DNA of 41,934 nucleotides from NCBI GenBank assembly GCA_008933615.1, contig WBUR01000037.1:1-41934 (forward strand), written 5' to 3'. The stretch comes from a bacterium. Its GTDB lineage: Bacteria > CLD3 > SB21. The position numbers and the translations under genes were made by a program. A model generated the notes under the pieces. That model was not told the origin of the DNA and did not search any database. It worked only from the letters and a program-made list of their open reading frames with translations. Position 1 is the first letter of the stretch; each line of letters starts with the position of its first letter. Shown here one piece after another: positions 19,293 to 25,006 of this stretch.

Positions 19293-19323
19293 AAAAAAAG
19301 GGCGCCATGGGCGTCCTTTTTTG
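19293..19323. terminator. Bidirectional intrinsic terminator between tpx and the V4R-ParA unit
   Basis: GGGCGCC (19300-19306) pairs with GGCGTCC (19310-19316, one G-T pair) around a three-base loop, flanked by A7 on the left and T-rich sequence on the right, so it can stop transcripts from both converging units. Confidence 0.88.
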
Positions 19324-19333
19324 TTATACCTAA

Positions 19334-19669
19334 CTACGAACCAAGACGGTCTAAAAAATCGGTGAAGGTTTCTTCTTTTCTGCCAAAAAAACGATCGGCA
19401 TGTACGGCCTGTTTTTTTGCACGATGCACATTTGAGGCTATAAAATTTTGAACTGAGTTATCCTTGCCGCGCACGGCAGGGACGATAAGGACTTCACCTA
19501 TCGGCGCAAGAAAATCAGCGACGGTCAAAAAATCTTTGCTGAAAAAAGTGGTTGCGGCCTCGTTCGTGGAACGGGTGAATCGTTTCGCGGGTCTTCTGGA
19601 AAGCGAATTAAATTCCTGAAGTAAAGTTGCTGCTGCGGCCGTTTCCGTAAATTTCGTTTGGGATTCCAT
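19334..19669 (-). CDS. Small protein of unknown function, last gene of the V4R-ParA unit
   Basis: A 111-residue soluble protein, rich in Ala, Thr, Phe and basic residues, with no signal peptide or metal motif. A hydrophobic stretch (VADFLAPIGEVLIVPAV) lies in the middle, and the ends are basic or charged (SRRPAKRFTRS, then FFGRKEETFTDFLDRLGS). I do not recognise the family. Its ATG lies one base after the stop of the second V4R-like gene, so it is translationally coupled and very likely belongs to the same function. By position it could be an adaptor or cargo link for the ParA-like ATPase, as small partners are in other ParA systems, but no sequence feature proves this. Confidence 0.72.
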   Translation of the reverse strand: MESQTKFTETAAAATLLQEFNSLSRRPAKRFTRSTNEAATTFFSKDFLTVADFLAPIGEVLIVPAVRGKDNSVQNFIASNVHRAKKQAVHADRFFGRKEETFTDFLDRLGS

Positions 19670-19670
19670 A

Positions 19671-20345
19671 CTAGTCTTCTTCTATCTCTTTTTTGATTTT
19701 TTGAAACGCCTCGAGCGGTGAAAAATGTTGTTTCATATAATTGTTAACCAAACCGATTGTATCGTCGTTATCCAACAAGAATGAACACCATTCGTATCCT
19801 TCGGATTTGCAGGTGATCTCGACACAGGATAGGTTCATATTCGAAATGCGGCTGAAGATTCCGGCAAAAAAACCAGCGTACAATTCACACGCGGTTCTTG
19901 AATCGTCGCTCGCTGCATCGGGAATAATGTCATTAACCAGGATCGAGTTGTGTAAATCAACAAACAAAAAATTGTCGCGTCTTTTTAGCTCAAAGTTTCC
20001 CCACCCCAGCGCGGCTAAATAGTTGGTGAAAAGCTGATGAAACTGATCCATACTCAGGTCTTTGATTGAACGAACTTCGGGAAATGTCAGCAATGCAAGA
20101 CGCTCGATCTTTGAATAAACCTCGTCGCCCCATTGAAATCCGATTCGGTATAAAAGTTCTTTGTCATGATTAGGGAATCGGGTTTTAATAAAGTTTATAC
20201 AGCCGTTGAAAAAACTTTTATCTATCGCAAGGCCCCGCAGGGATTCATGGATGATGATTTCTGAACTTAATGGAAGGAATTGAACAAAATTATCGGGTAA
20301 AATAAATTCAGCGAATTTTTCAATAGAAACAGTTGAATTGGGCAT
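19671..20345 (-). CDS. V4R-like domain protein B (Cys pair retained)
   Basis: A 224-residue cytoplasmic protein. The C-terminal half has the V4R look: TACELYAGFFAGIFSRIS, then LSCVEITCKSEGYEWCSFLL with the paired cysteines typical of V4R ligand- or metal-binding domains. The middle carries LLYRIGFQWGDEVYSKIE and NYLAALGWGNFELKRRDNF. All of these align by eye with protein A two genes upstream, so the two are paralogues. V4R domains serve as small-molecule or metal sensors and as adaptors. It lies 26 bases after the ParA gene. The N-terminal 50 residues are less conserved. Confidence 0.72.
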   Translation of the reverse strand: MPNSTVSIEKFAEFILPDNFVQFLPLSSEIIIHESLRGLAIDKSFFNGCINFIKTRFPNHDKELLYRIGFQWGDEVYSKIERLALLTFPEVRSIKDLSMDQFHQLFTNYLAALGWGNFELKRRDNFLFVDLHNSILVNDIIPDAASDDSRTACELYAGFFAGIFSRISNMNLSCVEITCKSEGYEWCSFLLDNDDTIGLVNNYMKQHFSPLEAFQKIKKEIEED

Positions 20346-20371
20346 AGTAATTTCCGTAAGTAATAAATAAG

Positions 20372-21187
20372 TTAAAAGCTTTTTGCAATTAATTCGTTGG
20401 GAGATCGCGAAAAAAATTTGAAATTTATTTCTTCAGCAAGATTGTAATAGGCCTGCAACCCCTCGGAAGTAGATTCTAATTCAGCCAGGGCATCCGGTAA
20501 GTTTTTATTGCCCGTATACAAGAGGTTAAGAGATGTATCACGCGGAATGGAAGTTTCAAAAACAAGGTCTTCGGTAAAATAATTGCGAACTTCTTCGTGA
20601 ACGATTTGCGAAGCCATGCTATTATTATCGAACATCGTGAGTAGTACGCCTGCAATTTCAATACTGTGATTTGTATTCTTTTTGATGTCAATCAATTGAT
20701 GCAAAAGTTGCGGGAATGTTCTGAGACTGAGCGGTTCGCTTTGTAGCGGAATGATCGCATAATCTGAAGCGATTAGAGCCCCGGTAGAAATAAGGCCGAT
20801 ACCCGGCGGACAGTCGATGAGTATGAGATCGTAATACGGCGCAGCATTCAGAACGGATTCGCGAAATAATCCGGTAGCGCGGGTTGCGTCTTCAAAAGCC
20901 TTAATTTCAGAGTTAGAGTTTGGGATTCCGGAGTCCATTACAAATAGATTTTCTAATTCCGTTGGCTGTGCGCCGTCGAGAATCTCTGCTTCACCGCAAA
21001 AAACCTGGTACAGGCCGAACGGAGAATTCGGGTGTTTATTGAGGCTGTATACTATTCCGCCCTGAGGATCTGCGTCGATGATCAGAACTTTTCTGTTACT
21101 TCTTGCAAAAGCAACGCCGAGATTGAGCGCGGTAGTTGTTTTACCGACGCCTCCTTTCTGACTCGCTATGCTGAAAATCTGACCCAT
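20372..21187 (-). CDS. ParA/MinD-like ATPase
   Basis: The 271-residue protein has the deviant Walker A loop KGGVGKTTT at residues 10-18 with the signature Lys, switch I DADPQGG at about 40, and Walker B LILIDCPPGIG at about 120. There is no N-terminal helix-turn-helix and no C-terminal amphipathic MinD helix that I can see. It is therefore a small ParA/Soj-type ATPase that could bind DNA non-specifically and position something. No parB gene or parS-like repeats are adjacent. Instead it sits between two paralogous V4R-like genes (gaps of 6 and 26 bases), which makes it an orphan ParA of the cargo-positioning kind; the cargo is unknown. Confidence 0.92.
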   Translation of the reverse strand: MGQIFSIASQKGGVGKTTTALNLGVAFARSNRKVLIIDADPQGGIVYSLNKHPNSPFGLYQVFCGEAEILDGAQPTELENLFVMDSGIPNSNSEIKAFEDATRATGLFRESVLNAAPYYDLILIDCPPGIGLISTGALIASDYAIIPLQSEPLSLRTFPQLLHQLIDIKKNTNHSIEIAGVLLTMFDNNSMASQIVHEEVRNYFTEDLVFETSIPRDTSLNLLYTGNKNLPDALAELESTSEGLQAYYNLAEEINFKFFSRSPNELIAKSF

Positions 21188-21193
21188 GCAACC

Positions 21194-21853
21194 TTATTCC
21201 AAATGTTGATTACCGTATGCGGCCAAAATATCTTTTTCTGTCTTGCCGCTTTGAAGGTGTTGTTCTATTTCCTCGATGACATCTTCTGTACTTAATGCAA
21301 AACGATTTCGTTCGGGAGAGTGAGTATCCGTAAAACCGGTACAAGAAAGTCTTTTTCCTGAAATGGAGCTGAATAAAGCAGATAAGAAACCGGCAAGAAT
21401 GCGATTCATGTGATCGCCATCGGACTTCTCAAGAGCCCATTCAACTGAGTGTTTGAGTTCAATGACGTAAAACTTGTTCCCTTCGGTGATACGGAATTGG
21501 CCGATACCGGAGTAACTCAGGTAGTTATTTAGATATTCTATAAATTCGTCCTTAAGGTAATCCTGAGGCTTTCTAATGGATTCGCTCTTTATTTGTTGTA
21601 TGCGCTCATTTAAGTTTTTATAGAATTCAAAGCCCCAGCTTCTTCCGAATTCATAAAAAAACAGTTTAGGGTCAACTGCCTTGTCTTTGTTTTGTGCCCA
21701 TAGGAGGCTTTGTAATCTCGAAATAAACGGCATATCGACAATTCCAACGCGACGGGGTAGTTGGGTAAACGGATCGGTAAGGGATAGACTTCCCTTGGCA
21801 TAGTCGACTTTGACATTACTTAGAACGGCCGATTCGATTGGGTTTTTGCTCAT
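21194..21853 (-). CDS. V4R-like domain protein A (Cys pair lost)
   Basis: The 219-residue first gene of the unit. It shares with protein B the phrases FFYEFGRSWGFEFYKNLN, NYLSYSGIGQFRITEGNKF and ILAGFLSALFSSISGKRLSC. The following segment reads TGFTDTHSPERNRFAL, so the two cysteines that B keeps (ITC, WC) are absent here. This suggests the two paralogues have split roles: one still binding a metal or thiol ligand, the other structural. No membrane segment or DNA-binding motif is visible. It is transcribed divergently from the pterin enzyme gene across 190 bases of AT-rich sequence. Confidence 0.7.
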   Translation of the reverse strand: MSKNPIESAVLSNVKVDYAKGSLSLTDPFTQLPRRVGIVDMPFISRLQSLLWAQNKDKAVDPKLFFYEFGRSWGFEFYKNLNERIQQIKSESIRKPQDYLKDEFIEYLNNYLSYSGIGQFRITEGNKFYVIELKHSVEWALEKSDGDHMNRILAGFLSALFSSISGKRLSCTGFTDTHSPERNRFALSTEDVIEEIEQHLQSGKTEKDILAAYGNQHLE

Positions 21854-22612: not shown

Positions 22613-23638
22613 ATGGCGGAATCCAAAGCGAATAGTAAAACAAAAGCAGCCGTGAAAAAAAAGGTCGAAATAGAAAGTAATCTTACTTCAGAAGATTATA
22701 TTCGAATGTACCGCCTGATGCGTTTGACGCGTGAATTTGATCAGGGTATTATCAGGTTATATCGTCAGAGCAAGATGATCGGCGGCGCGTATTCCGGTTG
22801 GGGAAATGAGGCGACGGCCGTCGGCAGTGCGTTTGCGCTGGAGCCGCAGGATTATTTATATCCGATGCACCGCGATATTGGCGCACATTTCACGCGCGGA
22901 CAGTCCGCGAAAGTTCTGATGCTCAATCATCTCGCCCGCGCCGACAGTCCCACGCGCGGTGTGGACGGAACGGGGCATTATTATGACAAGAAATTACGTA
23001 TCGTAGGAAATATCAGCCACCTTGCCGCGATGATCCCGCAAGCAGCGGGTACTGCGCTTGCCGCTGTAAAGAAAAAGGAAAATGCGGTCGTGCTTAATTA
23101 TATCGGTGATGGAGGAATGAACGTCGGAGAATATTACGAGGGGATGAATCTTGCGGCCGTTTGGAAATTGCCGTTTGTGCTTATCATTGAGAATAATCAA
23201 TATGCGTATTCGACACCGACGCATTTGCAATATGCCTGTGAGAGCCCTGTGGATCGCGCTATCGGCTACGGAATTCCTGGGGTTAAAATTGACGGGACGA
23301 AAATTCTGGAAGTATATGATGCCTGTAAAACGGCAGTGGATAGGGCGCGGTCGGGGAAAGGCCCAACGCTGATCGAATCGGTTACGATGCGCATGCGCGG
23401 ACATGCAGAACATGACGGGCATGAGTATTATCCCAAAGGGCTTTTGGAAAAGTGGCAGGCGAAAGACCCGATCGATCAATTCGAGAAATGCCTTCTTGAA
23501 AAAAAAGTTTTGACACAGAAATTGATCGAGAAAATTTCAGCTGACGTTAAGCATGAAATCGAAGAGGCGGTGGAATTTGCCGATAGGGCGCCCTGGCCCA
23601 ACGGCGCCGATGCAGAATTGGGCGTATACGCGGAGTAG
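22613..23638 (+). CDS. 2-oxoacid dehydrogenase E1 component, alpha subunit (copy 1)
   Basis: 341 residues of the thiamine-diphosphate-dependent E1-alpha family (pyruvate, branched-chain or acetoin dehydrogenases). The TPP/Mg motif is complete: YIGDGGMNVGEYYEGMN to IIENNQYAYSTP (GDG-N27-NN). The loop MRMRGHAEHDG is also typical. The N-terminal active-site loop reads HRDIGAHFTRG, lacking the His of the PDH-type RxHG, which is closer to branched-chain-type enzymes; the substrate is therefore open. The first 25 residues are a Lys-rich tail. It lies 44 bases after the pterin gene. The partner beta subunit is probably the gene at 32115, and no E2 or E3 is in the window. Confidence 0.92.
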   Translation: MAESKANSKTKAAVKKKVEIESNLTSEDYIRMYRLMRLTREFDQGIIRLYRQSKMIGGAYSGWGNEATAVGSAFALEPQDYLYPMHRDIGAHFTRGQSAKVLMLNHLARADSPTRGVDGTGHYYDKKLRIVGNISHLAAMIPQAAGTALAAVKKKENAVVLNYIGDGGMNVGEYYEGMNLAAVWKLPFVLIIENNQYAYSTPTHLQYACESPVDRAIGYGIPGVKIDGTKILEVYDACKTAVDRARSGKGPTLIESVTMRMRGHAEHDGHEYYPKGLLEKWQAKDPIDQFEKCLLEKKVLTQKLIEKISADVKHEIEEAVEFADRAPWPNGADAELGVYAE

Positions 23639-23950: not shown

Positions 23951-25006
23951 GTGAACTCTAAAGATAAAAAAAAAGACCGCGTACAAAAGACAAAAAAAAA
24001 TCAAAAGCCCTTTCTAACTGCCGCCGAACTCGATCTTAAGAAATTCGAGCCAACCGATGCACAGAAGAAAGAATTGTATTATTTCATCATGCTCAATCGG
24101 GCATTTGATGATCGTGTGGCGAAACTTTATCGGCAGGGCAAAATAATCGGCGCCGCCTACGGCAGCCGCGGGCAGGAAGCTACCAGCGTCGGTTCTGCCT
24201 ACGCGCTTGAAAAAAACGACATCGTCGGCCCGATCATTCGTAATGCGGGCGCCATTATCGTTCGGGGATTACCGGTAAAGAATTTTTTGTCCAATTTCAT
24301 CGGCCGCTCAACGACTCCGACGGGAGGCCGTGACGGGAATTCGCATCTGGGCGATTTGAGCATCGGAGTTTTTGCGCCGATCTCCCATCTCGGAAGTTTG
24401 ATCATAAATCTGACCGGATGCGCGTTAGCGTTTAAACTCAAAAAGGAGCCGCGTGTGGCGCTGACGTATATCGGCGACGGCGGTACGTCCACGGCCGAAT
24501 TTCATGAAGGTATGAACATGGCCGCGGTATGGAAAGTGCCTTTTGTCTGCATCATAGAAAATAATAACTGGGCGTATTCTACGCCGACGGCGCATCAGTC
24601 TAATCTCAAAGATCTGGCGGTGAAAGGCAAAGCATACGGCATGGAAGCCGTGGTAATGGACGGCAATGACGTTTTTGAAGTGTACCGCGTTTCCAAGTAC
24701 GCAATTGAACAATGCCGCGCCGGCAATGGCCCGATTTTGATCGAGTCCAAAACCATGCGCATGAAAGGCCACGCGGAACATGATGACGCATTCTATGTTC
24801 CGAAGGAAATGTTTGCCGAATGGCAGAAAAAAGATCCCATCGCGCGCGCCGAAAAATATCTGCTCGATCATAAGGTCATCACACAGGCAGAAAATGAAGC
24901 TCTAAAGAAACGAGTCGCGAAAGACATGGAAGAGGCGGAGGAGTTTGCATTAAATGCACCGTTCCCGCTGGGTGAAGAAGCGGCCGAAGGCGTTTATGCG
25001 GAATAG
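23951..25006 (+). CDS. 2-oxoacid dehydrogenase E1 component, alpha subunit (copy 2)
   Basis: A 351-residue paralogue of the preceding E1-alpha. The TPP motif is intact (YIGDGGTSTAEFHEGMN to IIENNNWAYSTP), and MRMKGHAEHDD and the shared C-terminal EGVYAE show common descent. The active-site loop differs (IIRNAGAIIVRG), so the substrate may differ from copy 1. The start is GTG with only a weak ribosome binding site, directly after the GIY-YIG unit; its first 20 codons are Lys-rich and hold two A9 runs (23966-23974 and 23992-24000). It is followed at 34 bases by a hotdog-fold gene. Confidence 0.92.
   Translation: MNSKDKKKDRVQKTKKNQKPFLTAAELDLKKFEPTDAQKKELYYFIMLNRAFDDRVAKLYRQGKIIGAAYGSRGQEATSVGSAYALEKNDIVGPIIRNAGAIIVRGLPVKNFLSNFIGRSTTPTGGRDGNSHLGDLSIGVFAPISHLGSLIINLTGCALAFKLKKEPRVALTYIGDGGTSTAEFHEGMNMAAVWKVPFVCIIENNNWAYSTPTAHQSNLKDLAVKGKAYGMEAVVMDGNDVFEVYRVSKYAIEQCRAGNGPILIESKTMRMKGHAEHDDAFYVPKEMFAEWQKKDPIARAEKYLLDHKVITQAENEALKKRVAKDMEEAEEFALNAPFPLGEEAAEGVYAE

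Follow-up and report, generated by a model that had tools for sequence, protein, structure and literature searches.

A conserved gene set of two V4R-fold paralogues, an orphan ParA-type ATPase and a short repeat-motif protein in an uncultured bacterial family: a possible intracellular scaffold

The four genes A, ParA, B and C represent a small conserved gene set in an uncultured bacterial family. They are located on the minus strand of a 41,934-nucleotide stretch of DNA, which is called the window in the following, and encode a predicted V4R-fold paralogue without the V4R cysteine pair but with a 31-residue C-terminal extension (A, 21194..21853, 219 aa), an orphan ATPase of the ParA/MinD superfamily (ParA, 20372..21187, 271 aa), a V4R protein of the Pfam family PF02830 that carries Cys179 and Cys187 as well as a C-terminal extension (B, 19671..20345, 224 aa), and a short protein with three to four copies of the motif [ST]hxxF[FLI]xxh (C, 19334..19669, 111 aa). 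It appears quite possible, though somewhat short of an even chance, that this operon codes for a small intracellular scaffold, in which the V4R pair and a string of motifs are combined with a controlling ParA-type ATPase.

The four co-directional genes are separated by gaps of 6, 26 and 1 base, exactly as described in the initial sequence-only reading of this DNA. The two-way terminator noted for the module was found as a bidirectional intrinsic-terminator hairpin (19295..19322) between the convergent genes C and tpx; it folds with -17.3 kcal/mol (z=-4.5), and 0 of 200 shuffled sequences were as good. A promoter scan of the locus revealed only matches at or below chance level. Elsewhere in the window, two tandem paralogous genes of the E1 dehydrogenase alpha type (22613-23638 and 23951-25006, approximately 48% identical) are situated before genes resembling the rest of a dehydrogenase complex. 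The same-genus genome G002 contains an additional 368-aa open reading frame between the PTPS and E1 genes (L022, 11706-12812), which is absent from the window.

The sample of the family comprised six other genomes, five of which carry genes of the module; the exception (G003) is 85% complete. The complete order A-ParA-B-C occurs in G002, G004 and G005, the contig of G006 breaks off within ParA, and in G001 the genes A and C are found at the ends of different contigs. Collectively, the module spans three genera with the gene order kept, and in every genus the neighbour on the side of C is tpx, encoding thiol peroxidase. The proteins from the window are 52-54% (B), 45-46% (A), about 60% (ParA) and 30-45% (C) identical to those from other genera, and dN/dS values of 0.03-0.15 within genera indicate purifying selection on all four genes. 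The recurrence of the order at 45-60% identity in other genera together with these low dN/dS values indicates that the arrangement is not due to chance. Hence, the neighbourhood search also settled the concern that the gene order could be restricted to a single genome.

Outside the family, the order A-ParA-B-C was not detected among approximately 390 sampled genomes, mostly one per family, so that a wider occurrence is possible. The V4R genes of the module are absent from the sister family, no pairing of V4R with ParA was observed at 26 V4R loci outside the family (1.5 kb flanks), and none of the listed ParA and V4R places outside the family are within 5 kb of each other. One apparent case of V4R beside ParA (L058) was dismissed, because the gene encodes a response regulator whose C-terminal domain differs. 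A conserved cargo gene travelling with the module was not found. A phage or defence origin was likewise rejected, since B matched none of 50,697 phage records and the PADLOC and PHROG matches were meaningful only to generic ParA. No publications joining the term 'ParA family ATPase' with V4R were found, an absence that is weak evidence.

The ParA protein matches the family AAA_31 (6e-39). Its deviant Walker A motif KGGVGKTT, which had been noticed before, is intact, and the same is true for the A' (DxDPQG) and Walker B (LILIDCPPG) motifs. The protein was also rightly regarded as an orphan, because the canonical parA-parB pair of the genome is located on a separate contig (C40), no parB lies beside the module ParA, and the only parS match in the window, situated 18 kb away with three mismatches, is at chance level. 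In a phylogenetic tree the module ParAs form one clade (100/100 support) outside 20 parB-linked ParAs and six other orphans, and the closest ParA outside the family was found with 7e-57 compared to E<=1e-145 within the family. The residues R189 and R218 of Soj from B. subtilis are responsible for non-specific DNA binding (PMC3778016). The corresponding positions are basic in most ParAs of the parAB type, whereas no module ParA has Arg or Lys at either of them. Moreover, the parAB-type sequence PRNVRLxEAPS is replaced by PRDxxLxxLYxG in the module ParAs, and a 4-residue insertion follows the IPRD motif. A ParABS partition system was hence rejected given the missing parB and parS, the separate clade and the missing DNA-binding residues. 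A parB-less orphan ParA clade, also without PRNVRLxEAPS, was seen at the loci L049, L050, L053 and L054; its members share with the module ParA the sequence EPLSL[KR]TL or similar in place of the usual EYYALEGL. In an unrelated genome (L081, 8341-15326), an orphan ParA gene is placed between response-regulator and lytic-transglycosylase-like genes in a run that ends in an FtsZ-like gene with a long extension.

The lack of both basic residues in all module ParAs argues against plain nucleoid-gradient positioning and makes it less likely that this ParA positions cargo on the nucleoid. In such a system ParA would coat the nucleoid and C, or alternatively A and B, would act as an ATPase-stimulating adaptor similar to McdB or ParB. 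The intact ATPase motifs and the small coupled partner gene would fit this explanation; however, in addition to the missing residues, the basic character of the C N-terminus is not conserved among orthologues, and A, B and C have no match to a known adaptor in the profile libraries tried, such that we regard it as unlikely. The sequence rather argues that the module ParA has lost nucleoid binding via the canonical residues, while DNA contacts through a different surface are conceivable.

The two proteins flanking ParA are paralogues, as proposed initially. BLASTP aligned A and B with E=3e-14 over 145 aa, and HHalign gave 98% over 177 columns, i.e. nearly the full length. B exceeds the cut-off of the Pfam V4R family (41.6 versus 31 bits); no Pfam family was matched by A, which was assigned to V4R via its homology to B. 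The assignment of the cysteine pair to B only was also correct, because Cys179 and Cys187 are invariant in five B orthologues and both are absent from A. Moreover, B is the more conserved V4R partner. Sequence searches of the PDB yielded no meaningful match for A, B or C. AlphaFold2 yielded a model of moderate quality for A (mean pLDDT 67) and a poor one for B (mean pLDDT 54). The best PDB matches of the A model are the V4R-bearing sensor domains of DmpR, PoxR and MopR (E from 1.3e-4), followed by TRAPP subunits (Bet3), BcsD and the V4R protein MJ1460. The low-confidence B model matches BcsD, Bet3 and YslB, that is, the same fold class, at E>0.001. Hence, the postulated structural relation of both proteins to V4R is sustained by the HHalign homology and by the models, weakly in the case of B, and A is predicted to share the V4R/TRAPP fold class with B. 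Only one further V4R domain exists in this genome; it lies outside the module and makes up the N-terminal portion of a very large signalling protein of PAS/GAF-like type (L039, G000:C7:113640-113783).

The V4R domain of DmpR, PoxR and MopR serves as a phenol sensor. In this regard, the cysteine-bearing B, together with A, could detect a metal or a compound of aromatic or hydrophobic nature and switch the ATPase, which would then act on an unlinked target, for example in division or motility. The fold match of A to the phenol-sensing domains, the invariant cysteines of B and the conserved neighbour tpx are consistent with a ligand or redox sensor; however, the cysteine pair is missing in A, an output domain is lacking, and the repeated motifs of C would be left unexplained. 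Such a sensor function seems quite improbable. The asymmetric sensor or cargo adaptor suggested initially for the A/B pair is likewise a hypothesis.

The coupled partner of 111 residues was recognized in the sequence-only reading and indeed follows B after the 1-base gap, but the repeated motifs in C had been overlooked. The copies are LLQEFNSLS (residue 16), TVADFLAPI (49), SVQNFIASN (72) and TFTDFLDRL (101). The C orthologues display variable linkers between kept short blocks, with [ST]hxxF[FLI]xxh occurring 3-4 times and the last copy at the C-terminus. By the charge-hydropathy rule, C is not classified as disordered.

Similar combinations were found in cyanobacteria. When the B profile was applied to 386 genomes, only three genomes outside the family were detected at E<=1e-6. 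The best of them (G330) has two V4R genes close together in an operon of the slr0144 type, in the order V4R, short protein, phycobilisome-fold protein and V4R, with a 2Fe-2S ferredoxin gene and a second phycobilisome-fold gene upstream. An independent search with B against 72,556 named plasmid records returned Acaryochloris marina only, again within an slr0144-type operon. A phylogeny computed from 49 V4R proteins separates A, B and both cyanobacterial types from the remaining ones with 91/88 support, a value below the strict threshold. Furthermore, the V4R core is followed by 26-34 residues in A, B and the Slr0144- and Slr0147-types, in contrast to 1-6 residues in the other sampled V4R proteins, with one case of 18. 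According to these sequence comparisons, the V4R proteins outside the family that are most closely related to A and B are those of the slr0144/slr0147 pair type. A direct assignment of A to Slr0147 and of B to Slr0144 was tried as well, but AU values of 0.82 versus 0.21, obtained when an own duplication and a one-to-one correspondence were compared, do not settle it.

The gene of the cyanobacterial short protein immediately follows the first V4R gene and in most cases shares 4 bases with it; the protein itself contains between two and five SVxxFFxxx[NP]W motifs, with TLxDLSDLF or similar at its end. The Slr0145-like proteins at the loci L117-L128 and L130 (5561-5923) consist of SVxxFFxxx[NP]WxG motifs strung together in two to five copies and have a DLSDLF-like conserved C-terminal end, and the one from L040 matched no Pfam family. 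A weight matrix made from the cyanobacterial motifs only placed the C orthologues at ranks 1, 2, 5, 7 and 13 of 115 proteins (shuffle p 0.005-0.02), whereby the ranked proteins derive from the examined loci, the C orthologues are not independent of each other and some other window proteins score, too. The likeness of C to the cyanobacterial motifs is moderate evidence, because it was noticed before being tested and the match is short. Since the motif protein accompanies V4R proteins irrespective of whether a ParA is present, the most economical reading of these sequences would be that the motifs bind V4R rather than ParA.

The operon slr0144-slr0152 of Synechocystis has been linked to photosystem II assembly and stability, and it is openly acknowledged that the contribution of Slr0144 and Slr0147 to this assembly is not yet settled (PMC13174344). 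The module could accordingly encode an assembly factor, in which subunits or a hydrophobic cofactor are bound by A, B and C and passed on to a membrane complex, with ParA as a delivery ATPase in the style of Get3 or ApbC and not as a positioner. This analogy is favoured by the occurrence of the closest V4R pair with motif protein in the photosystem II-linked operon, by the view that V4R domains bind hydrophobic ligands (PMC2253512), and by the absence of the DNA-binding residues from ParA. However, neither the type II reaction centre family (PF00124) nor the phycobilisome family (PF00502) is present in this genome, the ferredoxin and phycobilisome-fold genes of the operon are missing, and a Cys metal site is not evident in the module ParA, such that an assembly factor represents a possible but rather unlikely explanation. 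The absence of both families from the genome also implies that the part shared with cyanobacteria, the V4R pair plus motif protein, is not photosystem-specific.

A gene set known from exopolysaccharide synthesis, BcsP-BcsD-BcsQ (PMC11470070), offers another comparison. A and B would then correspond to BcsD, C to BcsP or BcsH and ParA to BcsQ, which together would align a glycan synthase. The best fold hits obtained with A and B indeed include BcsD structures, one of which is the BcsH-BcsD string 7zzq, with E 0.003-0.01 for models of low to moderate confidence. On the other hand, the Pfam BcsD family (PF03500) is not matched and the fold match of B has E>0.001, ParA reaches 54.5 bits compared to the cut-off of 157.85 for the NCBIfam BcsQ equivalog, BcsB is absent from the genome, and the sole synthase-like GT2 is far below both synthase cut-offs and encoded on another contig. 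ParA passes the Pfam model CBP_BcsQ marginally (22.8 bits versus a generous cut-off of 21.3), and ParA models score much better. A BcsPDQ-like scaffold is thus very unlikely, and a cellulose scaffold proper was rejected for want of BcsB and a BcsD profile match.

The combination of an ATPase, a putative TRAPP-like oligomer and a putative stringing partner nevertheless resembles BcsQ-BcsD-BcsP, and because membership in the Bcs group fails, the V4R-pair/motif-string scaffold with a controlling ATPase is proposed here. In this scaffold, A and B would associate as a pair of V4R/TRAPP fold and, like the Bet3 paralogues, probably build a heterodimer or a higher oligomer. The motifs of C, joined by variable linkers, may dock on several V4R subunits at once, by which these subunits would become strung or clustered. 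The ParA-type ATPase might then cycle between ATP dimer and monomer and thereby control where and when the assembly forms or releases, presumably through a surface that differs from the patch by which true ParA proteins bind the nucleoid. Direct support exists for the gene order, the homology, the fold class of A, the loss of the DNA-binding residues, the shared extension and motif protein, and the selection. Some observations speak against the proposed scaffold, namely the shortness of the motif match and its dependence on related orthologues, the charge-hydropathy result for C, the poor B model, the sub-threshold support for the V4R grouping and the absence of a cargo gene accompanying the module. 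In a broader and clearly more tentative view, which we consider improbable though worth stating, cyanobacteria and this family might have a scaffold type in common that is similar to the BcsD-BcsP/BcsH string and the TRAPP core and is here coupled to its own nucleoid-independent ParA-type ATPase, thus making up an undescribed ATP-controlled scaffolding system.

Stand-alone V4R pairs are so far without known role. If such pairs dock the short motifs that recur in a partner dedicated to them, a testable biochemical function would become available for both the module and the cyanobacterial system. An ATPase possibly driving the V4R/motif assembly would then be at hand, and a ParA relative that keeps the ATPase but is devoid of nucleoid binding would be added to the superfamily.

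Compared with known systems, the module has the ParA ATPase core in common with ParABS but differs by the lack of parB and parS and by its separate clade, and a parAB pair of the genome's own is located at another site. With the orphan ParA/MinD positioners McdA, PomZ, ParC, FlhG and MipZ it shares the ParA-like fold, the Walker motifs, the absence of ParB and a coupled small partner; however, the canonical DNA-binding basic residues are missing, and its partners are V4R proteins that belong to no known adaptor family. The TRAPP core subunit Bet3 is considered to have its prokaryotic root in V4R (PMC2253512). The module resembles this V4R/TRAPP-Bet3 family insofar as B passes PF02830, the A model matches V4R and TRAPP structures, and the paralogue pairing is similar to Bet3-Trs33 of TRAPP, but A has neither the cysteine pair nor a Pfam match and the module proteins possess extra C-terminal helices. 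BcsP-BcsD-BcsQ likewise unites a ParA/MinD-type ATPase, an oligomer of TRAPP-like fold and a stringing partner, the latter two being putative in the module, but has one BcsD in place of two V4R paralogues, and the module lacks BcsD and BcsQ equivalog matches as well as BcsB. Finally, slr0144-slr0152 has no ParA, and it includes 2Fe-2S ferredoxin and phycobilisome-fold genes, which do not occur among the module neighbours, and in Synechocystis also TPR and kinase genes that are absent from the module; moreover, no photosystem is apparent in the present organism. Nonetheless, it contains two V4R paralogues with a C-terminal extension of approximately 30 residues like A and B, and its first V4R gene is immediately followed by one for a short protein in which [ST]VxxFFxxxxW motifs recur; C is alike to this protein by motif and not by full-length homology.
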